Below are positions 2,198 to 35,301 of a DNA stretch of 35,301 nt, piece after piece. The position numbers and the translations under genes were made by a program. A model generated the notes under the pieces. It saw nothing but the letters and a program-made list of their open reading frames with translations. It made no database searches and was not told where the DNA came from. Source of the DNA: Candidatus Fermentibacterota bacterium (GTDB taxonomy: Bacteria; JAFGKV01); the NCBI GenBank assembly GCA_030620115.1, contig JAUXFG010000026.1, positions 1 through 35,301 on the forward strand, written 5' to 3'. Numbering within the stretch: position 1 is the first letter of the stretch; each line of letters starts with the position of its first letter.

Positions 2198-2343
2198 AGG
2201 GGTTCAGCTTCTATCTAAGGGTTCGCTCAGGGCCATGAGGTCAGTCGCCAAAACGAGGGCCGCAAGCTTACCTCCCCGCGCAACGCGCGTCAACAATGGG
2301 TCTATTGCATCACCAGCAATAGCGATTCCGTCTCTCACAGACA

Positions 2344-2377
2344 ATGTAGGTCGGGTTAGCCCCGCGTAACCCGACAT
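2344..2377 (+). repeat. REP sequence, copy 1 (forward)
   Basis: A 34-nt REP with core GTCGGGTTA...TAACCCGAC, giving a 9-bp stem and a GC-rich loop. It starts ATGTAGGTCGGGTTAG. It pairs with an inverted copy at 2617-2650; a second pair lies at 3667-3700 and 3907-3940. Sequences of this type are mobilised by REP-associated tyrosine transposases (RAYTs), and a RAYT remnant lies inside the second pair. Confidence 0.85.
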
Positions 2378-2530
2378 CTCCGCTCCGTCCCAAACTTCGT
2401 CTCGAACTTTGCTTGCCACGCCGACTCGTCACGGCGTATCCACCAGGAGAAGACGGAAGCCATCCGACGAAGGCGGGTCTCGAACTCTATCCTGATTCTC
2501 ACCCAGTGCGGGAAAAGCCACAGGCAGGGG

Positions 2531-2563
2531 AAGATCGCAGGCAGGGACGCCTGCGCCACTGAC
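2531..2563. repeat. Dispersed repeat (AQASLPAIF family)
   Basis: A 33-nt unit beginning AAGATCGCAGGCAGGGACGC lies between REP copies 1 and 2. Nearly the same sequence recurs at 5440-5472, where its last 13 nt are tandemly repeated. One minus-strand frame reads VAQASLPAIFP, a spurious peptide. This is non-coding repeat DNA in the 450-bp spacer upstream of lepA, which otherwise holds no recognisable gene. Confidence 0.7.
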
Positions 2564-2573
2564 ATGCGCCACT

Positions 2574-2613
2574 TGCCGCTTTGTCTTCTGCTATGGGAGA
2601 AGACAAAGCGGCA
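2574..2613. other. Perfect 16-bp hairpin inside REP pair
   Basis: TGCCGCTTTGTCTTCT (2574-2589) is exactly inverted at 2598-2613, with an 8-nt loop. No T-run follows on either strand, so a simple intrinsic terminator is unlikely. It lies immediately beside the REP at 2617, downstream of the minus-strand gene that ends at 2650, and could stabilise or end that transcript. Confidence 0.7.
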
Positions 2614-2616
2614 AAA

Positions 2617-2650
2617 ATGTCGGGTTACGCTGGGCTAACCCGACCTACGT
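2617..2650 (-). repeat. REP sequence, copy 2 (inverted)
   Basis: Inverted 34-nt REP, starting ATGTCGGGTTACGC on the plus strand. Its last base overlaps the TAA stop of the minus-strand gene ending at 2650, so this gene ends on a REP element that forms the 3' end of its transcript. Confidence 0.85.
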
Positions 2651-3612
2651 TACTTCGTCCCAAATTCTAGCGGGTGCCTGGGCTTCTCCACCAATACGCT
2701 TTTCTCCAGGGGAATGTCGGCCGTTGGGAATCTGGCCAAGGCTTCCCTTGTCTCCTGTGTCACAGGAATCCTGAACATCTCCATGAAGGGGAGCAGGTTC
2801 TCTCCCACAGCCTCTGAGAGAAACCGGACCAACACGGAATTGGCTTGAAGTGAATCTGCTTCAGGGAAAGTCAACTCCCCCTCTTGAATTGCCCGATATG
2901 TTGCTTGGAAAAGAGGCCATCCGTACTCAGCCCAAAGGCTTTGAAGCAAGACGTGGCAGACCGCTCCCGGGTCGTATTTCTCTCCTTCGAGATATCTATC
3001 AGTATGCTTAAGGGCTCCTTGGTACTCACGCACCTGCTCTACGGGCCAACCGCAGTCCACCATGGCATGCTGGCGCAGGAATCCCGCGTGACCCTCAGCA
3101 GCAAACCACCATGGCGCATGAGTGCCTTTTCCCTGATAGTCCACGTACACATTAGCCCAACCATTGGCCAGTTCGTGCCAGATGATTGAAAGCGTTGGAT
3201 CCCCCCTCTCGATCTCTTCGAGTTCCAGCCCGGGGAGAAGCGTGGCGGTAACCTGGGTATTGTTCCACGAGGTGAGTCCACCAGCCCATCCCTTACGCCA
3301 CATGTCCTCGGGCTGGTAGAACATGAAATAGTAGCGCGGATGGTGCACATCCGGGTTGTCCTGAATCCAATTCATCAAGTCATTCAAAGCATAGCCCGTG
3401 TAGGTCCGGTAGATGTGGTATCCTTCTTCCAGATACTCCTCAACCATGGGCCGGTACGAAGCGTATTGTTCCGCAATCTCCACATCAAAGTGCTCCGTGC
3501 TGAAAACAACCAAAGTATCATCTCGGGATTCCGCGCCGCTGCAATCAAAGACCCCCGGACTCAGTAACAACGTCAGGATGAATGAGAGAAGCCTGTTCTT
3601 CGAAACGTTCAT
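2650..3612 (-). CDS. Secreted metallopeptidase-like protein with degenerate zinc motif
   Basis: No named family recognised. The ORF track begins at 3660, but the ATG at 3612 is preceded by a strong AAGGAGG site and gives a signal peptide (MNVSKNRLLSFILTLLLSPG), so a 320-aa exported protein is predicted. Around residues 145-175 it reads WHELANGWANVY followed by WWFAAEGHAGFLR. This is the layout of gluzincin-type zinc peptidases (HExxH, then an E in a W-F-x-E-G stretch), but the second histidine is Asn (HELAN). The rest is helical and acidic without further motifs. It may be an inactive or altered peptidase; a lipoprotein is also possible but the Cys context (VFDC) is a poor lipobox. The gene is bracketed by REP pairs on both sides. 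The protein call is solid, the function is not. Confidence 0.75.
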   Translation of the reverse strand: MNVSKNRLLSFILTLLLSPGVFDCSGAESRDDTLVVFSTEHFDVEIAEQYASYRPMVEEYLEEGYHIYRTYTGYALNDLMNWIQDNPDVHHPRYYFMFYQPEDMWRKGWAGGLTSWNNTQVTATLLPGLELEEIERGDPTLSIIWHELANGWANVYVDYQGKGTHAPWWFAAEGHAGFLRQHAMVDCGWPVEQVREYQGALKHTDRYLEGEKYDPGAVCHVLLQSLWAEYGWPLFQATYRAIQEGELTFPEADSLQANSVLVRFLSEAVGENLLPFMEMFRIPVTQETREALARFPTADIPLEKSVLVEKPRHPLEFGTK

Positions 3613-3666
3613 CGAATCCTCCTTGTTGATCAGAACAACCTTCCTTGAACCCTGCACCAATAGACA

Positions 3667-3700
3667 ATGTAGGTCGGGTTAGCCCGGCGTAACCCGACAT
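3667..3700 (+). repeat. REP sequence, copy 3 (forward)
   Basis: 34-nt REP nearly identical to copy 1, with the loop reading GCCCGGCG. It lies just downstream of the RAYT stub (on the minus strand) and about 55 bp upstream of the metallopeptidase-like gene start, so it sits in that gene's promoter or leader region. Confidence 0.85.
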
Positions 3701-3707
3701 TTCTCCA

Positions 3708-3890
3708 TCATTCGTTTCCCACATCCTCCGGCAACGTCATCGCCACCGTGCCCCAATCCTCCGAGTACACACCTGCATCCACGTATCGCCGCATGCTCGA
3801 GTAGGGCCAATCGATCGGTCGATAGACATACGCATGTTTGACCGGGTTGTAGTGGATATGATCTACAACGAATGCGCGTCGGTATTCCAT
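3708..3890 (-). pseudogene. REP-associated tyrosine transposase, C-terminal stub
   Basis: Sixty residues match the C-terminal end of RAYT / IS200-like Y1 transposases: HIHYNPVKHAYVYRPIDWPY then a RRYVDAGVYSEDWG-type ending. The catalytic HUH and tyrosine parts are absent; upstream (minus strand) the sequence runs directly into REP copy 4. It is a dead remnant, but its position between two inverted REPs is what a once-active RAYT locus looks like. The exact 5' limit is arbitrary. Confidence 0.8.
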
Positions 3891-3906
3891 GTCTACTCCG
3901 GTCGGA

Positions 3907-3940
3907 ATGTCGGGTTACGCTGCGCTAACCCGACCTACGT
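3907..3940 (-). repeat. REP sequence, copy 4 (inverted)
   Basis: Inverted 34-nt REP with loop GCTGCGC-type sequence, closing the second REP pair around the RAYT stub. It is followed within 15 nt by the TGAACCC tandem array. Confidence 0.85.
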
Positions 3941-3953
3941 TACTCCGTTACTC

Positions 3954-19385: not shown

Positions 19386-19550
19386 CTCGGTCGACCGGCC
19401 TTGGTCACAGGCCTTGCAGGCAATACCATCTCAGCCGTTTCGCGACGAAGGCCGGTGAGAAGTCCGGGCTAATCCCGCCCCTTCATATTTCGATATTCGG
19501 ATTTGACGCGTCCACAATCCTCAATTATCCCCAAGATGTGACGTAGGTCC

Positions 19551-22443: not shown

Positions 22444-22497
22444 TAGCCCGGACTTCTCACCGGCTTCGCTTCGAAAGCCGGTGAGAAGTCCGGGCTA
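22444..22497. repeat. Perfect 23-bp inverted repeat (hairpin)
   Basis: Arms 22444-22466 (starting TAGCCCGGACTTCTCACCGG) and 22475-22497 are exact complements around an 8-nt loop. Its arm sequence resembles the tail of the TCCCGCG palindrome family (TNGCCCGNANTTCTCACC), seen near 19454, 15594 and 8820. It could end the 663-aa gene's transcript as a hairpin, but no T-run follows. The rest of 22259-22569 holds no gene. Confidence 0.85.
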
Positions 22498-26372: not shown

Positions 26373-26408
26373 AATACTCTAGTAAATCCATGGATTTACT
26401 AGAGTATT
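26373..26408. repeat. 36-bp perfect palindrome
   Basis: AATACTCTAGTAAATCCA followed immediately by its exact reverse complement, without a central spacer, and a CCATGG centre. It lies 190 bp left of the insertion-sequence end. Strongly AT-rich for its surroundings. Role unknown: possible protein-binding site, cruciform or remnant of an inverted insertion. Confidence 0.95.
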
Positions 26409-26626
26409 ATGCTAATGCCAAAATGCCGGTGGTTTTGAGACGGAATGCAGGCCGTTGGTGCACTGTATCCCGCCGGCGATCGGATCTTTGATCGCGCCGG
26501 TTGTCGGACCTTTGGCATATCATCTTCAACGGAAGTTCCGGGACGCATTTCGCGAGAATGGTTGTGGCGTAAGGAGTTAGAGATTATTTGCGATCATATG
26601 TAGCCACTAAATCCCGACGAAAGGTC

Positions 26627-26655: not shown

Positions 26656-26664
26656 GTGGCCACT

Positions 26665-28320
26665 ATGTATGTTGATTCATGCTCTACTAGCAGCAACGGA
26701 AGAACCTACACACGCCACCTCCTCAGGAAAAACTACCGTGCGGGGGGGAAGGTCAAACATCATACTATTGCCAATATCTCGGATTGCTCAGATGAAGAGA
26801 TAGCCGCTATCAAGCTTGCGCTGCGCTACAAGAAAGATCTCACCTGTCTGGGTACAGTGAAAGAAGATCTCAGCACCCACCAAGGAAGTTCAGTTGGAGG
26901 GGTGTGGCTTTTGCACTCTGTGAGCAAGAGGCTTGGAATCGTGAATGCGTTGGGGAACAGCCGAGAAGGCAAACTGGCATTGTGGCAAGTGTTGGCGCGA
27001 GTAATCGATCAGGGATCACGACTATCTGCAGTACGATTGGCAGGGCGGACAGCGGCGTGTGACGTTTTGGGATTGGACAGTTTCAACGAGGATCATCTGT
27101 ACAAGAATCTCGAATGGCTGTATGAGAAACAGGAGAAGATAGAAGATAGGTTGTATAGGTTCCGGCGGGGAGAGGAGAAGGGTGAGCTATTCTTATATGA
27201 TGTAACGAGCAGCTACTTGGAGGGGGATCATAACGAGTTGGGGGATTGGGGATACAACCGAGACAAGAAGAAGGGGAAGAAACAGATAGTAGCAGGGCTG
27301 TTATGCGACGAGGGAGGGGCGCCGGTATCGATACAGTTGTATAGGGGGAACACGCAAGATGTGACAACGTTTGGAGATCAGGTGAGGAAGATATCGGAGT
27401 GCTTCGGCGGGGGCACCGTAACGGTGGTAGGAGATCGAGGGATGATCAAGGGGCCGCAGATGGAGGAGCTGAGAGGCGCGGGGTTTCATTATATCACCGC
27501 GATAACGAAAGCGCAGATACGGAAATTACTGAAGGGAGGAGTGCTTCAGCTGGAACTGTTCGACGAGGAAGTGGGGGAAGTGGTAACGGAGGAAGAGGAG
27601 CGCTACATTTTTAGACGGAATCCAGCCAGGGCAGAGGAGATACAGAAGACGCGAGAAGAGAAGATGAGGTCGCTGGTCAAGAAAACAAGAGTCCAAAACG
27701 AATATCTGAAGGAGCATCCCCGAGCGAAAGAGTCGGTAGCTACGAGGAATCTGGAGGCATACGCAAAGAAGGTTAAGATATCGGGCTGGGCGAGGGTGAT
27801 TGGAACAGATCGAGTATTGCGGATTGAGATTGATGCGGAAGAATTGGAGAAGGAATCAGAGTTGGATGGTTGCTATGTTCTGAAGACAGATGTGAACAAA
27901 GAGACGCTGCCGAAGGAGAGAGCGCATGAGAGGTACAAAGATCTGAAACTGGTAGAGGACGCATTCCGGACGAGCAAGACGGAGGTACTGGAGATGCGCC
28001 CTTTGTATCTGCGCAATGAGATACGGACACGAGGGTTCGCAGTAGTAGTCATGCTGGGGTATTCCTTGGTCCGGGAGTTGAAGCGCTGTTGGGTGAACTT
28101 GGAATGCACGGTAAACGAAGGCATAAAGGAATTGCAGACATTGTGCACCACCGAGGTTCGACTTCGAGGCAAGCCGTTATTGCATGAGATCCCGGAAGCC
28201 AACGAGGGGAACAGAGCGTTGTTGGCAGCAGCGGGAGTTCACCTACCCGAGGCGTTGCCGAATCGAGGAGTAAAGGTAGCCACCAGAAAGAAGCTGAGCT
28301 TGAAGCGAATAAGGCGTTGA
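26665..28320 (+). CDS. IS1634-family DDE transposase
   Basis: 551 aa from the ATG at 26665 (the GTG at 26656 would fall upstream of the expected transcription start). N-terminus GRTYTRHLLRKNYRAGGKVKHHTIAN is typical of the IS1634 family of IS4-like transposases. DDE residues are visible: first Asp in LFLYDVTSSYLEGD, second in VVGDRGMIKG, and the Glu in ERYKDLKLVEDAFRTSK, with the family's Y-R/K-E-K spacing. The gene runs full length without frameshift and appears intact, so the element may still be active. It lies directly left of the inverted-repeat-flanked cassette; whether it mobilised that cassette is not shown. Passenger or downstream DNA contains a DUF6788-like remnant. Confidence 0.93.
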   Translation: MYVDSCSTSSNGRTYTRHLLRKNYRAGGKVKHHTIANISDCSDEEIAAIKLALRYKKDLTCLGTVKEDLSTHQGSSVGGVWLLHSVSKRLGIVNALGNSREGKLALWQVLARVIDQGSRLSAVRLAGRTAACDVLGLDSFNEDHLYKNLEWLYEKQEKIEDRLYRFRRGEEKGELFLYDVTSSYLEGDHNELGDWGYNRDKKKGKKQIVAGLLCDEGGAPVSIQLYRGNTQDVTTFGDQVRKISECFGGGTVTVVGDRGMIKGPQMEELRGAGFHYITAITKAQIRKLLKGGVLQLELFDEEVGEVVTEEEERYIFRRNPARAEEIQKTREEKMRSLVKKTRVQNEYLKEHPRAKESVATRNLEAYAKKVKISGWARVIGTDRVLRIEIDAEELEKESELDGCYVLKTDVNKETLPKERAHERYKDLKLVEDAFRTSKTEVLEMRPLYLRNEIRTRGFAVVVMLGYSLVRELKRCWVNLECTVNEGIKELQTLCTTEVRLRGKPLLHEIPEANEGNRALLAAAGVHLPEALPNRGVKVATRKKLSLKRIRR

Positions 28321-28352: not shown

Positions 28353-28664
28353 TACTTCCGCTGGAACTTCCGCTTCAAAGTAATCGACCGGAGGGGGATC
28401 TCTCTGGTTGACGCAGAACACGCCTGCTCTCCCCCCAGGAGGCGCAACTCTACAGGGAGTGGATCAACAACCGCCGTCAGCTTGTCGCCATCAAAGATGA
28501 CACGCTGGCTATTTCTGAAGCAGCCAGAAACTGCATCCTGAGCTCCGAAATCCCAAAGGACACAAGAAGAGCAAGGCGTCAAAGAAAAGGGCCACCTAAA
28601 CACGGGGATATTCACCCACACGGACGATATCCCAGGGCTTTCCACTACTTCCTTTCTCCTTGAC
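28353..28664 (+). pseudogene. DUF6788-like remnant downstream of transposase
   Basis: Frame 1 (from 28353) reads YFRWNFRFKVIDRRGISLVD, then after a shift at about 28430 a second frame reads QEAQLYREWINNRRQLVAIK and DDTLAISEAARN. This resembles the C-terminal half of small DUF6788-type proteins (Y-W-N-F-R-x-K ... YREWINNRRxLE) often found near transposons. At least one frameshift and no N-terminal half, so it is non-functional. The family match is from memory of its pattern and is moderate. Confidence 0.45.
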
Positions 28665-28743
28665 CAACCCAATCTCCTTGGATATCAGGGACTTACGCGT
28701 CGTTCCAAAGTAGCCACACCCGAAAGGAATAGCGTGTGCGGAT

Positions 28744-28917
28744 GGGAGAGGGGAACGAGACCGGACCGGCGTAGTAGAAAGAGTCGAGCGAAAGAAGAAG
28801 TCGTTTTTTCGCGCGGTGTCTCTTGACTTGCCCTCTTGTCTGAGACTCCTGTACTATCACGAGTCTCATTCACGAAGAATCCGGTGGCACGCCGGGGGCG
28901 GGGCTAATGGGTGACCC
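28744..28917 (+). repeat. Left inverted copy of a structured ~175-bp element
   Basis: Inverted counterpart of 34590-34774. In the inner 97 nt, 91 positions agree and all six differences are transitions; the outer part shares GGACCGGCGTAGT...GAAAGAGTCGAGCGAAAGAAGA and differs by an about 10-nt gap. Three hairpins: GAGCGAAAGA with TTTTTCGCGC (28786-28814), GAGACTC/GAGTCTC (28842-28867), CCGGTG-GCA-CGCCGG (28881-28895). The inner sequence points toward the A-B-C cassette. It begins 25 bp right of the IS end. Confidence 0.85.
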
Positions 28918-29053
28918 CGCAACCTCCAATCTCTCTTCCTGGCGAACCGGGCTTATCCCTGCAAATGCTTTGCACACTCTGCTCCTCAGGCCCGCGCAAC
29001 GGTATCGTTCTCGCGTTAACCATGCTGAGGCCACAACCTTGGGCAGATGTTCC

Positions 29054-29083
29054 TTGACACTCGCATGCCGTGGAGCTTATTGT
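29054..29083 (+). promoter_or_regulatory. Candidate promoter of the A-B-C cassette
   Basis: TTGACA, 18 nt, TATTGT, within the 300 bp between the left repeat and gene A, about 130 bp upstream of its ATG. It lies inside the repeat-bounded segment, so the cassette would carry its own promoter. Confidence 0.5.
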
Positions 29084-29213
29084 TGCATCTCTGCTGTCCC
29101 ATGTGAAAAACTGACCTGCCATGGGATGATGTTAAGATTATTCTTGTAGATTTACTGCAAGGATCATCTGCCCTAGTTGTGATACTTGCTGGTAACACGG
29201 ACACGAGAGGACC

Positions 29214-30203
29214 ATGGACTTCAACAAGGCACTGGAGCCCCTGCCTGAGCAAGATAGGAGCGCGGCGGGGGAGTGGTACAGCGCTCTGATTTCCAGACGG
29301 GACGAGGCGGTCCGGCCCGGTTCCCTCAAGATCAGCGGCGAGACCCCAATCCCCCAAGAGTATCAGTGCGCCGTGAACTGGTACAACGTCCATATCGAGT
29401 CACACCTCACGGATAGTGACCAGTCGACTTTCGCTGATTTCATCGCGAAGGGATGGCACAACACTCCAGATGAACCGCTCAAGTCCATACATTGGCGGAC
29501 TCTCATGGAGATTTGTTGTGAGCAAGAGTACCAAGATGCTCTTGCCGCTCACGGCGAACAAATCGACAATGCGGCCCTCGATGATGAGATCGGGGAGCAT
29601 CTCGTTTCTTTCATTTCGTCCGATAGCCTCAATCAGCGCGTGGATTCCGATGGCGATTCATTTGTTTGCTGGCCGCCTGATCCATCAGTTCCACTTGACG
29701 CGGCCAGGATCGTGCGTGATTTCTTCGAGAATCCGTCTCCGGTCGTCTGGTGCAGTTCGTGGAAACGAATCGAAGGCGACTTGAGCAAAACATGCCGCTT
29801 TGATGAGACTGGTCAAAAGCTCGGTCTGTCGCATGCGTCAACGACGGTCGATCCGCCCGGCGAAAGATTCTATGGAATTCGCTTCGCCACAGCCCTCTTG
29901 AAAAAGGAGTGCAGATTCCCTACAGTGGCGGACGCGCGGATGTTTCACGTTTTCGAGCCCTCTACAGACCGGATCGGACGCACCTTGGATCTCAGAAATG
30001 GAGGCACAGGCCTCCCGGAGGTCGTTCTGAAGAGAACGCATCTAAGCGAAAAGCATCAGCAGAACCCGAGCGTTGCCGATGTGGCGGTGTGTCACGCCCC
30101 TGGTGCTGATGCCCAACAACATACTTGGGTTCTTAGTCGTCCCATCGGATGTGAGCCCCAGCATATGCGCACTCGCCTTGCGCGTGTACGAAACGCACTG
30201 TAA
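29214..30203 (+). CDS. Cassette gene A: unknown cytoplasmic protein, possible 3' frameshift
   Basis: 329 aa, SD GAGAGG three bases from the ATG. No family recognised. The N-terminal half is acidic and mostly helical (EWYSALISRRDEAV, FADFIAKGWHNTPDEPL). The middle has DGDSFVCWPPDPSVPLDAAR and SPVVWCSSWKR. Near residues 241-275 is ARMFHVFEPSTDRIGRTLDL then RNGGTGLPEVVLKR, a beta-rich motif block. No signal peptide, membrane segment or nuclease/protease motif was seen. After about residue 277 the frame turns low in GC3 and polar, while the +1 frame becomes hydrophobic (LVLMPNNILGFLVVP) and GC3-rich and runs without a stop into gene B; an A4 run at 30049-30052 could hold an indel. The C-terminus may therefore be wrong or fused to B. 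It begins the cassette and probably supplies its specific component. Confidence 0.75.
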   Translation: MDFNKALEPLPEQDRSAAGEWYSALISRRDEAVRPGSLKISGETPIPQEYQCAVNWYNVHIESHLTDSDQSTFADFIAKGWHNTPDEPLKSIHWRTLMEICCEQEYQDALAAHGEQIDNAALDDEIGEHLVSFISSDSLNQRVDSDGDSFVCWPPDPSVPLDAARIVRDFFENPSPVVWCSSWKRIEGDLSKTCRFDETGQKLGLSHASTTVDPPGERFYGIRFATALLKKECRFPTVADARMFHVFEPSTDRIGRTLDLRNGGTGLPEVVLKRTHLSEKHQQNPSVADVAVCHAPGADAQQHTWVLSRPIGCEPQHMRTRLARVRNAL

Positions 30204-30219
30204 TTCGGAAAGAGAAAAC

Positions 30220-31290
30220 ATGTCCAAAGATCCGTATATGGCTCGTATTAAATGGCTCGCCACCCAGACTGAAGCACAATGCCTACAAGTGTTTCGTGAT
30301 CGTCTTGTGTACTCGGCCGACAAAGGTCTTCCCGTCGATGAGGCTCGTGGCGAGAGACCGGAGCAGTTTCTTGTCTGGGCATTTCAGCACAATGATGTCG
30401 CGTTCAGAAAGAAGTGCGGACGCTCGTTGATGCTCCTCATCAACGAGCTCTTGGAGCAGATCAGCAGCGGGCATGAGGACCGTGTCGCCGCACTGTCTGG
30501 GACGTTGCATGTGGCCGCCCAAGCGTACGTTATTCCTGCTGCTGAGCCACTTCAGAAATGGTTGATCGATAAAGGACATCTCTCCGACTTCGCAAGGATG
30601 GGTCTTCTCCGTTCGCGGGGGAGATACTCATGGGATGTGCTTCATCAGGCTCTCATGACCTTGTCCATCCTGGAGTCCATCATCCCGAACCCCTCGAAGC
30701 ATGTTCTCTCACCACCGTTCTGGGAGGACATGTTGATGAAAGACGATCCTGCGGGGTTCCGTGGCCTCGCCGTAAGAGGCCTGGGCTATCTCGATTGGCA
30801 ACGAGGCCTTCGGTGGCTACCGGCCTTCATTGATGAGGTTCTAGGTCCAACTTCGCCACGGCATTCAGACGACGCCGTGCTCAGCATCGCTGCGGCTATC
30901 AGGTTCTTCTTCGACCGTTCTGAGGCCGACAGATCTCTCATCACTGAAACCCGTCTGATCGAGAGGCCAGATCTCCTTTCCGAAGTCCTGCGCGCGGAGT
31001 ATCGGTTTGGGCCTGGCCTCCACGCCGTGCTTGACTTGATCCAGAAAGTCATCGGTTATCTCCTGGCGCGACAGGACGTATTCTCCGACCCGGCCGACAA
31101 AACCAAATGGGAGGAGTTTTCCAAGTACTTCACTGTGACAATCACGCAGCCCGTCCCCCTCAAGCTCGTGAGTTGGGAACAGGAGAAACAAGCGGAACAG
31201 GGCGCACAAGGCTCGTGGCTCACGTATGCGTATGATGATTGGAATGAAGCGCGGCATTTGAAACAGCACAGAGCTCTGGCTGCAATCTGA
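30220..31290 (+). CDS. Cassette gene B: alpha-helical unknown protein
   Basis: 356 aa from the ATG at 30220, 16 bases after the A stop, with GGAAAGAG upstream. The ORF track opens at 30073, inside A; that extension (MPMWRCVTPLVLMPNNILGF...) is more likely the displaced C-terminus of A. Sequence is almost entirely helical, with short amphipathic helices (EQFLVWAFQHNDVAFRKK, SLMLLINELLEQI, GLRWLPAFIDEVLG), possibly HEAT-like repeats, but without a confident match. No catalytic motif, signal peptide or membrane span. Its TGA overlaps the ATG of gene C by one base (TGATG), so A, B and C form a coupled operon. A regulatory adaptor between A and the NTPase is a reasonable guess, nothing more. Confidence 0.75.
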   Translation: MSKDPYMARIKWLATQTEAQCLQVFRDRLVYSADKGLPVDEARGERPEQFLVWAFQHNDVAFRKKCGRSLMLLINELLEQISSGHEDRVAALSGTLHVAAQAYVIPAAEPLQKWLIDKGHLSDFARMGLLRSRGRYSWDVLHQALMTLSILESIIPNPSKHVLSPPFWEDMLMKDDPAGFRGLAVRGLGYLDWQRGLRWLPAFIDEVLGPTSPRHSDDAVLSIAAAIRFFFDRSEADRSLITETRLIERPDLLSEVLRAEYRFGPGLHAVLDLIQKVIGYLLARQDVFSDPADKTKWEEFSKYFTVTITQPVPLKLVSWEQEKQAEQGAQGSWLTYAYDDWNEARHLKQHRALAAI

Positions 31291-34200
31291 TGAAGACGAT
31301 TACTTTCTTCTCATACAAGGGTGGTGTGGGCCGATCGATGCTCCTGGCCAATGTAGCCTGGCACATGGCCTCCCTCGGCAAGCGTGTGGCGATCATTGAC
31401 TTCGACCTGGAAGCTCCGGGATTATCCCTGGTCCCTGAGCTGAATCCCGGATGCCCACAGAGCCCTGACCGGTACGGGCTGACCGATTTGATGCAGGATA
31501 GAATTGATGCTTCGGATGGCAAGAAGCCAGTTCCGAAGGTGGAGAACTACGGCTCGTGGGTGGAAGGTCCCTCTGAGTTTGGAACGCACGGGAGCATTTT
31601 TTTCCTTCCCTGTGGATCCGTCCGATTGCCTCTTGGTCACAATGTCGCGAGTGCTCTCGAAGGCATTCAGACTGACATCAGCGAGATCCTTCACTGTGAG
31701 TACTTGTTCGTCGACTCACGGACTGGTCTGAGCGACGTGGCTGGGATCACAACCGTCTTCCTCCCCGATCTTGTGTTCGTCGTGCTGGGCCTAAATCGTC
31801 AAAACATCGAAGGGACGATGGAGGTGCTGACTCAGCTAAAGGAAACCGACTTGCCTCAGTATGTCTACCTCGTTCCTTCGCTGACCCCGCTTGGCAAGGA
31901 TCAGGAAGTGGCGCAGATCCATACGGCCCTCCGCCAGCGGCTGAAGGAGTTCGGTATTCCAGAGGACAGACTCCTCGCGGATTTCGCTTTGGATTACCAT
32001 CCTCAGTTGGCGATAAGTGACGCTCCTGTCATCGGCAAGGGCGTAGCGCTGGCCACCGAGAGACAATACAGGCGCCTCGCTAACAAGATCATTGCGCTTA
32101 ATGAAGATGATCCGATAACAAGGAAGGAAAGAGCGAAGAAGCTGATGGAAGAGAAGGACTACGTCCAGGCACTGCGCATCCTCGGTTCTGTTGTCAGGCG
32201 TCCCGAATTCGCCGAGGATGTCGAAGTCCTTCGAGCATATGGGCGCGTTTGTGTTGAGACAAAGAACCTGGCCGAAGCCGTGAATGTCTTGGCCAGGGCT
32301 CTGCGCATCGAACAGAAAGCGGGACGAGACGAGGAATCACGTACCATTAATACCGCACTTGTCTATGCTGACGCAATCCAGGACGAGCGAGACGTCCAAA
32401 GTGCTTTCCTTGAGGAGGCCCGCAAGTTTAGAGGTTCGAATGAAGAAAGACGGACCCTTTACCAACGACTATCCGATGCCTACGCAGCTTCGCCCATGGA
32501 CGTTCCTAATCTAATGCGCGCAAACGACGAAATAGCTCGGCTGGACCCGTCCGTCGCATGGATGTCCGCCCAGGGGCGAGCAAGGGTTTACATGCTGTGG
32601 CAAGACAAGAACGCGGCGAGACAGGTGTTTGAACGCGAGATCGATCGCTACCCCACCGGCGAAAAAGGACTGGCCGACTTGCTGATAGGGTATGGCCGGT
32701 TCTTGGAGGAGCTGAAGGAGTCGCAGTCCGCGATTGATCAATACCTCAAGGCCTTGAAAGCCAAACCTGAGGACCCCGTTTGGGTGTGGCTGAGGATCGC
32801 CAATATCCACTGGTTCCATATGCCAGAAGGCAAGAGGACTGCGATAGTCGAACTACGTCGGGCAATCGATTTAGTCGGTGAAGATGAGAGGCTTTGGGAA
32901 GACCTATCCGTGTGCTACGAGCTTGAGAATGATCTGCGGTCAGCGATGGAGTGCCGAAAGGCTCGCATAGCTATTGCACCTTGGGACCGTCTGAACGACA
33001 TATCCATAATCGCGAGATTGGGATCCAAGCTCGGTCTGGATACTCTCAAGGACCACGAGGAGGATCTTTTTGGGGAGATTAAGGCAAACCCGACTTGGCA
33101 CTACGCCTATGTCGCGCTTTCCGTGCTCTATAGCTTCAACTCCAGGTTCGAAGACGCTGCTCACGTCTGTCTGGATGGCGTAGAGGCATGCCGCACCATC
33201 GAAGCCAAAGACGGCTTTGCATCCACCTTGGGCAAACTGAGGGGCTCAGATGAGGCAATTGGCCCGGCGATCGAAGCCCTCAAAGCACCTGGTTTTCGGG
33301 ATGTGCCTCATGCCAGGCTTAATATCACCTACCTCGCAGTTCGGAAAAGGGATTGGGCTCTTGCGGTGGATCAGGCCCTGGAGTACGTGAGGATGGCCTC
33401 TCCGGCTGATGCCAGTGATGCCGCGGCGCGTGCCTCAGATCTCTTGGAACGTATAGGTCGGGTAGACGAAGCCATGGCCCTTCTTGGGGATGAACTCGCG
33501 TCAAGGCCTGAAGACACGCGGCTCTACATGAAACTAGCGGCCCTTCAGGACAGGTCGGGTAACTTCGTCGGGGCATTGAAGACGCTTGAGGAGTTTGAGC
33601 GGAAGACACACGGCTTCCACGCTGATGACATCCTGCCGATGCGAGTACATGTTATAGGAGAGCAGATGGGAGATGTCGAGGGGGCCCGGCGAGCAATCAG
33701 GGAGGCGATCAAGAAATACCCAGACGACCGAGCCCTGAGAAAGCAGGCCGCATATGCTTGGGACAGACTGGGTGATACCACGGAATCGAGGAGGATCTGG
33801 CGTGCTTTCATCGACTATGGTGAGGACAAGCACGTAATGGGGTGCCAGTCCTTACTTGGTCAGTCGTACCTAGAATCAGGAGACCCAACGAAGGCCTTGT
33901 CGGTATTTGAGAAGCTGATCGAGAGTCGTAACAGCAAGTCTCGACCGCTGCTCTTTCTCCGACTCGTTTGCCTTGAAGAACTGCGCAGTCCGGTAGATGA
34001 GGCAATCGATGAACTCAGGACTCTACATAGAGACACGGAATCGGCCAAGACAGATACACAAACTATGGGACGCGTGGTACGTTTGTCGCTTAGGAGTCGA
34101 CCCGACTTGGAGCGCGCGCGGCAGTTCTCTGAATGGATTGATGACTACGATGTTAACCAGGCTAACGCAAAGCTGCGAAGTACCGAGGCGCTCTACTGCT

Positions 34201-34403
34201 TCTGCACAGACCAAACCGAGCAGGGCTTTGCGGCGCTAAAACACGCACTCTCGCTCGGCTACTGTCACGAATGGCGACATGGGTTTCTTCACGATCTCAA
34301 ACTGTTCGCGGCTGAGCATCATCTCGAATCGATCATCGAGGAAATCAGCAGCGTGGTGTTGCATCGAAGGAGCAGTCCAAAATCACGCAAGCCCACCAAG
34401 TGA
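31290..34403 (+). CDS. Cassette gene C: KGGVGR-type ParA-like NTPase with TPR array
   Basis: 1037 aa. The N-terminus is a SIMIBI/ParA-MinD-class P-loop domain with deviant Walker A SYKGGVGRSMLLAN (Lys10 signature lysine kept, the usual Lys before Ser16 replaced by Arg15), IIDFDLEAPGLS (Asp37, Asp39), and a Walker-B-like LFVDSRTGLSDVAG (Asp142). KGGVGR/KGGTGR NTPases of this kind occur in predicted NTP-dependent conflict systems of bacteria, often with TPRs and an effector. From about residue 270 to 1000 the protein is a long array of degenerate TPR-like helices (for example DYVQALRILGSVVRRPEFAE, SQSAIDQYLKALKAKPEDPV, FVGALKTLEEFERKTHG), a protein-binding scaffold. No nuclease, TIR or protease domain is visible, so any effector must be A or unrecognised. 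Cytoplasmic. It is the last cassette gene; the right inverted repeat lies 187 bp downstream. Confidence 0.9.
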   Translation: MKTITFFSYKGGVGRSMLLANVAWHMASLGKRVAIIDFDLEAPGLSLVPELNPGCPQSPDRYGLTDLMQDRIDASDGKKPVPKVENYGSWVEGPSEFGTHGSIFFLPCGSVRLPLGHNVASALEGIQTDISEILHCEYLFVDSRTGLSDVAGITTVFLPDLVFVVLGLNRQNIEGTMEVLTQLKETDLPQYVYLVPSLTPLGKDQEVAQIHTALRQRLKEFGIPEDRLLADFALDYHPQLAISDAPVIGKGVALATERQYRRLANKIIALNEDDPITRKERAKKLMEEKDYVQALRILGSVVRRPEFAEDVEVLRAYGRVCVETKNLAEAVNVLARALRIEQKAGRDEESRTINTALVYADAIQDERDVQSAFLEEARKFRGSNEERRTLYQRLSDAYAASPMDVPNLMRANDEIARLDPSVAWMSAQGRARVYMLWQDKNAARQVFEREIDRYPTGEKGLADLLIGYGRFLEELKESQSAIDQYLKALKAKPEDPVWVWLRIANIHWFHMPEGKRTAIVELRRAIDLVGEDERLWEDLSVCYELENDLRSAMECRKARIAIAPWDRLNDISIIARLGSKLGLDTLKDHEEDLFGEIKANPTWHYAYVALSVLYSFNSRFEDAAHVCLDGVEACRTIEAKDGFASTLGKLRGSDEAIGPAIEALKAPGFRDVPHARLNITYLAVRKRDWALAVDQALEYVRMASPADASDAAARASDLLERIGRVDEAMALLGDELASRPEDTRLYMKLAALQDRSGNFVGALKTLEEFERKTHGFHADDILPMRVHVIGEQMGDVEGARRAIREAIKKYPDDRALRKQAAYAWDRLGDTTESRRIWRAFIDYGEDKHVMGCQSLLGQSYLESGDPTKALSVFEKLIESRNSKSRPLLFLRLVCLEELRSPVDEAIDELRTLHRDTESAKTDTQTMGRVVRLSLRSRPDLERARQFSEWIDDYDVNQANAKLRSTEALYCFCTDQTEQGFAALKHALSLGYCHEWRHGFLHDLKLFAAEHHLESIIEEISSVVLHRRSSPKSRKPTK

Positions 34404-34589
34404 GGACCATGGTGACTCGATGTCGCCGGTGGCGGTTAGTCCCTTCAAGTGCGCACGTGGTCCTCCGACTTATCGGCGAATGTCCTGAACACCTCCACAA
34501 GCTGATGAATGCTCTCGCTGCCACCAGCAATCACGCCTCCCGTTAGCCCAAGTTCACCTCTCTGAAAAGCGAATGGGGGGCAGAAATGA
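34404..34589. other. Spacer, no gene seen
   Basis: Between the end of gene C and the right inverted repeat. No ORF with an SD and no terminator-like hairpin with T-run was recognised. Confidence 0.5.
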
Positions 34590-34774
34590 GGGTCATTCAT
34601 TAGCCCTGCCCCCGGCGTGCCGCCGGATTCTTCGTGAATGAAACTCGTGATAGTACAGGAGTCTCAGACAAGAGGGTAAGTCAAGAGAAAAAGACACCCC
34701 TCCGAGCGAAAGAGCGCCCTCTTCTTTCGCTCGACTCTTTCCACTACGCCGGTCCGATGTCGTTCCCTTCTCCT
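34590..34774 (-). repeat. Right inverted copy of the structured element
   Basis: Reverse-complement partner of 28744-28917. On the minus strand it holds a perfect 10-bp stem GAGCGAAAGA/TCTTTCGCTC (34704-34713 with 34723-34732), GAGACTC/GAGTTTC with one G-U pair, and CCGGCG-GCA-CGCCGG with a perfect 6-bp stem. Compared with the left copy, a C/T change gives a G-U wobble in one hairpin here and in the other hairpin there. Both copies read inward, bounding 29-34.6 kb. Confidence 0.85.
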
Positions 34775-34851
34775 CTCTTCGCTCCCGTTACATCGCTTAA
34801 GTTGGGTTGCAATCAGTTCACACTGATCCGCGCCAGGGGGACGGGTTACTA

Positions 34852-34954
34852 GGGGACGTTGGTGCAGAGAGTGCGCAAGTCACCCGGGTACCAAAAACTC
34901 CTGGTATTGTGGCCTTCTCCAGACAGCCTCAGCACTTTCCGCACCAACGTCCCC
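34852..34954. mobile_element. 103-bp MITE-like element
   Basis: Terminal inverted repeats of 23 nt (34852-34874 and 34932-34954) starting GGGGACGTTGGTGC match at 21 of 23 positions; the ends carry extra G or C. The interior also pairs partly (TACCA...TGGTA). Too short to code. Short GGGGACGTT-ended elements of this type are seen near RAYT-type transposases in other bacteria; that association is recalled, not shown here. Confidence 0.7.
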
Positions 34955-34967
34955 CAAATACCATCCG

Positions 34968-35042
34968 CTGGAGCGCCATCCGCCGGTTGTCGGATCTTCG
35001 ATGCTCCATTATGGCCGCCATTTGTGGCGATACTTCGGACGC
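34968..35042. repeat. GGAGGGCCAT-type repeat, copy at the right edge
   Basis: Shares the stretch CCATCCGCCGGTTGTCGGAT and ATGGCCGCC...GATAC...GGACGC with 19146-19220. It directly follows the MITE-like element. Confidence 0.7.
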
Positions 35043-35050
35043 GGTTGATG

Positions 35051-35100
35051 AAAAAACCCAGCCCAGTAACTGATGGTCATTGGGGCAGGTACTGGGCTGG
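35051..35100 (-). terminator. Intrinsic terminator, minus strand
   Basis: CCAGCCCAGTA (35058-35068) and TACTGGGCTGG (35090-35100) form an 11-bp stem with a 21-nt loop; the minus strand continues into TTTTTT at 35056-35051. It would end a transcript arriving from the right, beyond the window. The remaining 35101-35301 shows no gene or repeat that I can support. Confidence 0.6.
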
Positions 35101-35301
35101 AGATCGCGCGCCTCGCGCATGAAGGCGGATAGGCGACGCCGAGGAACAAGTGGGCCTGTTCGAGTGATGATAAAGCACCGCTCTTGGGGTCAGGGTACCA
35201 GGAAGAAGTCAAGGGAAAAGCTTGAGCTCCGATTTTGACAATACTCCTCCGTTGCCGATCGATGTCGGTTTTCGAGAAACGAGTTGATCAGGACCAGACT
35301 G

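Follow-up and report, generated by a model that had tools for sequence, protein, structure and literature searches.

A short non-coding element occurs twice, in inverted orientation, in the 35,301-nucleotide stretch of Candidatus Fermentibacterota DNA analyzed here (the window), and we read it, at a probability of roughly 60%, as part of a Fermentibacteria mobile repeat that is modular, non-coding, non-autonomous and present in few copies; the element would be the fixed inner end of this repeat. Its copies are dispersed, have one fixed end and are modular in make-up, and in another genome the terminus borders a truncated pseudogene. Mobility itself is something we infer, because neither a terminal inverted repeat nor a transposase turned up. 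The copies share the order ...TTGACnnnCCCTCT, an optional 69-nt module and AATGGGTGACC, and differ in their reach on the other side. In the proposed arrangement, a transposase or recombinase working in trans would recognize the terminus, and the inward-facing left and right copies (WL and WR) would have arisen as the intervening operon was acquired or bracketed. If the hairpins have any role, it would be as structures at DNA ends, not in a transcript.

Copies in the window and across the genome

The two matching flanking copies of the original prediction were borne out as inverted copies at 28744-28917 (+) and 34590-34773 (-), with paired arms at 28745-28816/34702-34773 (88% identity) and 28819-28917/34590-34688 (94%). 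A direct comparison of the flanks returned a single BLAST alignment of 184 columns at 85% identity (E 2e-52). The repeat is thus real, but its predicted boundaries were too narrow, as WR aligns with another genomic copy, C17, out to 34836.

Table 1. Coordinates of the element, its parts and the enclosed operon in the window.
Feature	Position	Strand	Remark
WL (left copy)	28744..28917	+	family homology from ~28722; inner fixed end toward operon
Third hairpin in WL, CGAGCGAAAGA / TTTTTCGCGCG	28785..28815	+	
CCCTCT	28831..28836	+	conserved, left of 69-nt stretch
69-nt stretch	28837..28905	+	in all five own-genome copies; holds both flagged hairpins
Hairpin GAGACTC/GAGTCTC	28842..28867	+	
Hairpin CCGGTG/CGCCGG	28881..28895	+	
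WL fixed terminus AATGGGTGACC	28906..28916	+	shared by own-genome copies, those of the sister genus and two other-phylum genomes
Operon gene 1	29214..30203	+	329 aa; no Pfam, PADLOC or NCBIfam match
Operon gene 2	30073..31290	+	405 aa; no Pfam, PADLOC or NCBIfam match
Operon gene 3, KGGVGR-motif AAA ATPase with TPR repeats	31290..34403	+	1037 aa
WR (right copy)	34590..34836	-	outer side ~70 nt longer than WL; inner end toward operon
WR fixed terminus AATGAATGACCC	34590..34601	-	

The genome (4.1 Mb in 296 contigs) holds five elements at six BLAST places in unrelated contexts: WL, WR, C17, C291, which is cut by a contig end, and C239, which is split by another repeat. Pairwise identity over the inner part (88 nt) is 92-97% among the four full copies, and here C17 is the nearest relative of both WL and WR. 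In the long alignment, too, WR shares 90.7% identity with C17 (over 247 nt), against 85.9% with WL. Because each window copy is closest to C17, the pair does not derive from a recent local inversion-duplication. A coding reading was rejected on inspection, since frames across the element are broken by between-copy indels. No tRNA was found at the loci of the other copies.

The inner end, AATGGGTGACC(CC) with small variations, is found in nearly all copies, and the sequence past the terminus is unrelated from copy to copy. The outer end varies between copies, which could reflect decay instead of a mode of movement. A 9-bp direct repeat, ATGGRTGAC, flanks five units, preceding the outer module, and may bound the unit; judged by its near-identity in all five, this repeat may be part of the element instead of a target duplication. 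No terminal inverted repeats were found in the C17, G1_C340, G1_C79 and G2_C109 units, which excludes a classical MITE on that feature.

Several other repeats were observed. A frequent palindromic repeat, TTCTCACCGG...CCGGTGAGAAGTCCGGG, lies at 22444-22497 and 19429-19471 and many times in other contigs; one of its copies splits the C239 element. A perfect 36-nt palindrome, AATACTCTAGTAAATCCATGGATTTACTAGAGTATT, at 26373-26408 has close counterparts on this genome's contigs C17 and C291. A small inverted pair with a REPIN-like look, GGGGACGTTGGTGC...GCACCAACGTCCCC, occupies 34850-34953 just outside WR, and a repeat cluster, AATGTCGGGTTACGC..AACCCGAC, in direct and inverted orientation, spans 2339-3948.

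The terminus in related genomes and in other phyla

A first search of 60 genomes with WL as query matched no other genome. With the longer WR as query, the outer part was matched in both other genomes of the phylum that were searched. The diverged copies belong to a sister genus; one G001 contig comes from Candidatus Fermentibacteria MAG Zod_Metabat.355, a metagenome assembly, and all genomes compared are in many contigs. In four sister-genus copies the alignment covers the outer module (170 nt) and the terminus TTGACCCGCCCTCTAATGGGTGACCCC; they lack the 69-nt stretch, which is also absent between CCCTCT and AATGGGTGACC in G000:C79, where the terminus alone persists. The 69 nt therefore form a separable module and no necessary part of the repeat family. 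A covariance model of the outer module recovered one further copy in G001 and gave a weak match in G089, a genome of another phylum (E 1.6e-4 when computed for one genome, with 193 searched).

The terminus motif, allowed at most one mismatch across 386 genomes, was found outside the phylum only in G089, where it is exact, and G267, where one position differs; the reversed pattern, used as control, gave one match. In G267, to which the link rests on about 45 nt, the terminus joins an IS200-type tnpA fragment to a truncated, stop-containing epimerase-like frame; an inserted element can give such a junction at its end. The IS200-type tnpA, at L060:1490-1768 (-), is cut after ~73 residues and fused to AATGGGTGACC, beside a truncated epimerase-like pseudogene. 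The element and its motifs were also sought in phage records, in plasmids and, with five patterns, in viral contigs, where nothing convincing emerged, and scans of GTDB contigs returned the sister MAG as their sole result.

These distributions bear on whether the family is simply an old intergenic repeat, at present neither mobile nor functional. The few copies, the 86-91% identity over long alignments and the interruption of one copy by another repeat would all fit such a relic. Against it, the same terminus recurs in the sister-genus genomes and in two from other phyla, and conservation is far higher in the inner part than in the outer, which makes this explanation very improbable.

Pairing differences and the test for an RNA

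Over the inner 98 nt, WL and WR differ at exactly six positions (28830, 28865, 28885, 28900, 28910 and 28911), all of them transitions, confirming the six that had been counted over 97 nt. Two lie in stems: with the + strand of the left copy read, the changes at 28865 (GAGTYTC) and 28885 (CCGGYG) swap G-C for G-U pairs in two different hairpins, as had been proposed. On the opposite strand the same changes give A-C mismatches, and both stem changes keep their pairs only if the + strand of WL is the RNA strand. In the third hairpin, WL carries one mismatch and one wobble, as described, which are A-G and G-U; WR has 11 perfect pairs instead of the 10 reported earlier.

The original prediction took these differences as mainly preserving pairing, and hence as a sign of selection or copying at the RNA or hairpin level. 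The two flagged stems cover 26 of the 98 nt, and 1.6 hits in stems are expected from six changes. When six random transitions were simulated, no pair was broken with a probability of 0.47, or 0.26 given at least two stem hits. The pairing pattern is not beyond chance, and because it arises this often in simulation, these two copies alone give no usable signal. Extending the comparison to all five own-genome copies left the three hairpins at chance level, with 96.5% of cells paired, a value equalled or bettered in 292 of 500 shuffles. Each of the two flagged hairpins varies at one pair, on a single side; the third has one pair that appears as G-C, A-U and G-U and another that is mismatched in four of the five copies, and a two-sided change occurs at one pair only among the three. 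RNA-level selection, as judged from the WL/WR differences, is not supported.

A structured transcribed element under RNA-pairing selection, acting as a small RNA, a cis-regulatory leader or an operon-edge terminator, is more generally an unlikely account of the family. The proposed non-coding RNA found no match in Rfam at gathering scores across the window, and none up to E 5 within 28500-35301. Minimum free energy folding of the window copies was ordinary on both strands, with z-scores of -0.8 to -1.8 relative to shuffled sequence, and own-genome covariation stayed at the shuffle level. Within the element there are no promoter-like sites, and terminator-like sites are at background level. In the sister copies G2_C109 and G1_C216, unrelated filler takes the place of the third-hairpin region. 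Genes lie beside the copies in both orientations. On the side of an RNA, the terminus is often within ~300 nt of a gene.

Two further observations speak for an RNA. The sister copy G2_C179 folds with a z-score of about -4 on both strands, and a seven-copy alignment of the outer module, folded with RNAalifold, yielded 31 pairs, five of them with two-sided changes, with 97.4% of cells paired and a covariation of 0.224 against 0.153 in shuffled alignments (0 of 500 as high). The covariation check thus gave a divided answer, with own-genome copies at the shuffle level and the seven-copy outer module above it, the latter with a structure fitted to the same alignment, which is circular, and with rows that effectively amount to two clades. 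For these reasons we regard the modeled outer-module covariation as a lead and no proof. Its helices are mostly other than those first described, overlapping them in part of the third hairpin. The transposon end offered as another option in the original prediction fared better, through the dispersed copies, the invariant terminus and its position beside a truncated pseudogene in another genome, although classical terminal inverted repeats were looked for and not found.

The enclosed operon and known mobile repeats

WL and WR face inward around a three-gene ATPase/TPR operon. The ATPase of gene 3 matches NF047398 at 117.9 bits (cut-off 90), and PADLOC reports a partial PDC-M28B match over the ATPase part. 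The KGGVGR ATPase gene is present in a single copy here and is missing from both relatives. The available text of PMC7159879 describes ATP-dependent biological conflict systems in general, and a conflict role for the window operon is one that we infer.

The inward-facing pair raises the question of whether WL and WR bound a single cargo unit as its two ends, in the manner of a mobile insertion cassette or a TIME-type mosaic, with the 5.2-kb operon as cargo. Inverted copies do surround an operon whose ATPase gene the relatives lack, the chance of two of five copies falling within 6 kb, which also counts toward the preferred reading, is about 0.03, and pairs of small non-autonomous elements can move intervening DNA (PMC4133298). 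The geometry argues the other way: the fixed termini point inward and the outer ends are unequal, with homology stopping near 28722 on the left and WR reaching 34836, the opposite of a transposon cut at its outer ends. Moreover, C17 is closer to each of WL and WR than they are to each other, the contigs of C17 and C239 carry no second copy, and no target duplication was shown for the WL/WR unit. On balance, a single cargo unit is distinctly unlikely.

Next to other copies, toxin-antitoxin genes recur: MNT/HepT at C239, PIN at C291, HigA and MazF at G1_C340, and VapC at G089. The own genome encodes 22 PIN genes in 4.1 Mb. This recurrence is suggestive only and is not taken as proof, because it was noted post hoc and several families were counted. 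We consider it improbable that the element is a one-ended, cassette-like mobile repeat spread over at least three phyla, in which AATGGGTGACC would be a recombination point bringing toxin-antitoxin or conflict-system genes alongside.

Just left of WL, at 26656-28320 (+), lies an IS1634-family transposase (NF033559, 279.5 bits, cut-off 100), with a 17-nt near repeat (76%) at 26591 and 28701. It was rejected as a partner of the element, being absent among the listed neighbors of other copies. Y1/IS200 transposases were likewise discarded: the terminus is not near the Y1 transposase loci in three genomes, and among such transposases it occurs only at the tnpA fragment of G267. No transposase was linked to any copy, and no empty site was seen for any unit.

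The element, on the preferred reading a low-copy mobile repeat with one fixed end, can be set beside described systems. Like MITE- and TIME-type transposons (PMC4133298), the element is short, non-coding and dispersed, with five copies in its own genome and others in two related genomes, and a pair can bracket foreign genes. Unlike them, it has one fixed and one variable end, and no terminal inverted repeats or target duplication were found. It shares with REPIN/RAYT palindromic repeats and IS200/IS605-derived palindromic elements, as far as the available text of PMC3116915 and PMC6006769 describes them, hairpins near the ends, an absence of coding capacity and the occurrence of Y1 transposases in the same genomes. 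REP/REPIN sequences with RAYT, however, have a high copy number, a GTAG-tagged palindrome and a linked Y1 transposase with matching ends, whereas the element has only five copies and no paired palindromes. The GTAG tag is present in the own-genome copies and reads GGAG in the sister genus, and no Y1 locus carries the terminus. Mobile insertion cassettes resemble the window arrangement in that related sequences in inverted orientation enclose an operon that lacks a transposase of its own; here, in contrast, the fixed ends face the cargo and the flanking copies are not mutually closest.

The comparison of WL with WR cautions that RNA covariation should not be read from two copies. The element is a dispersed repeat, so far uncatalogued, from a phylum that has received little study. 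Should its fixed terminus turn out to be a site of recombination, it would offer a route for shuffling toxin-antitoxin and conflict genes with no obvious transposase involved.
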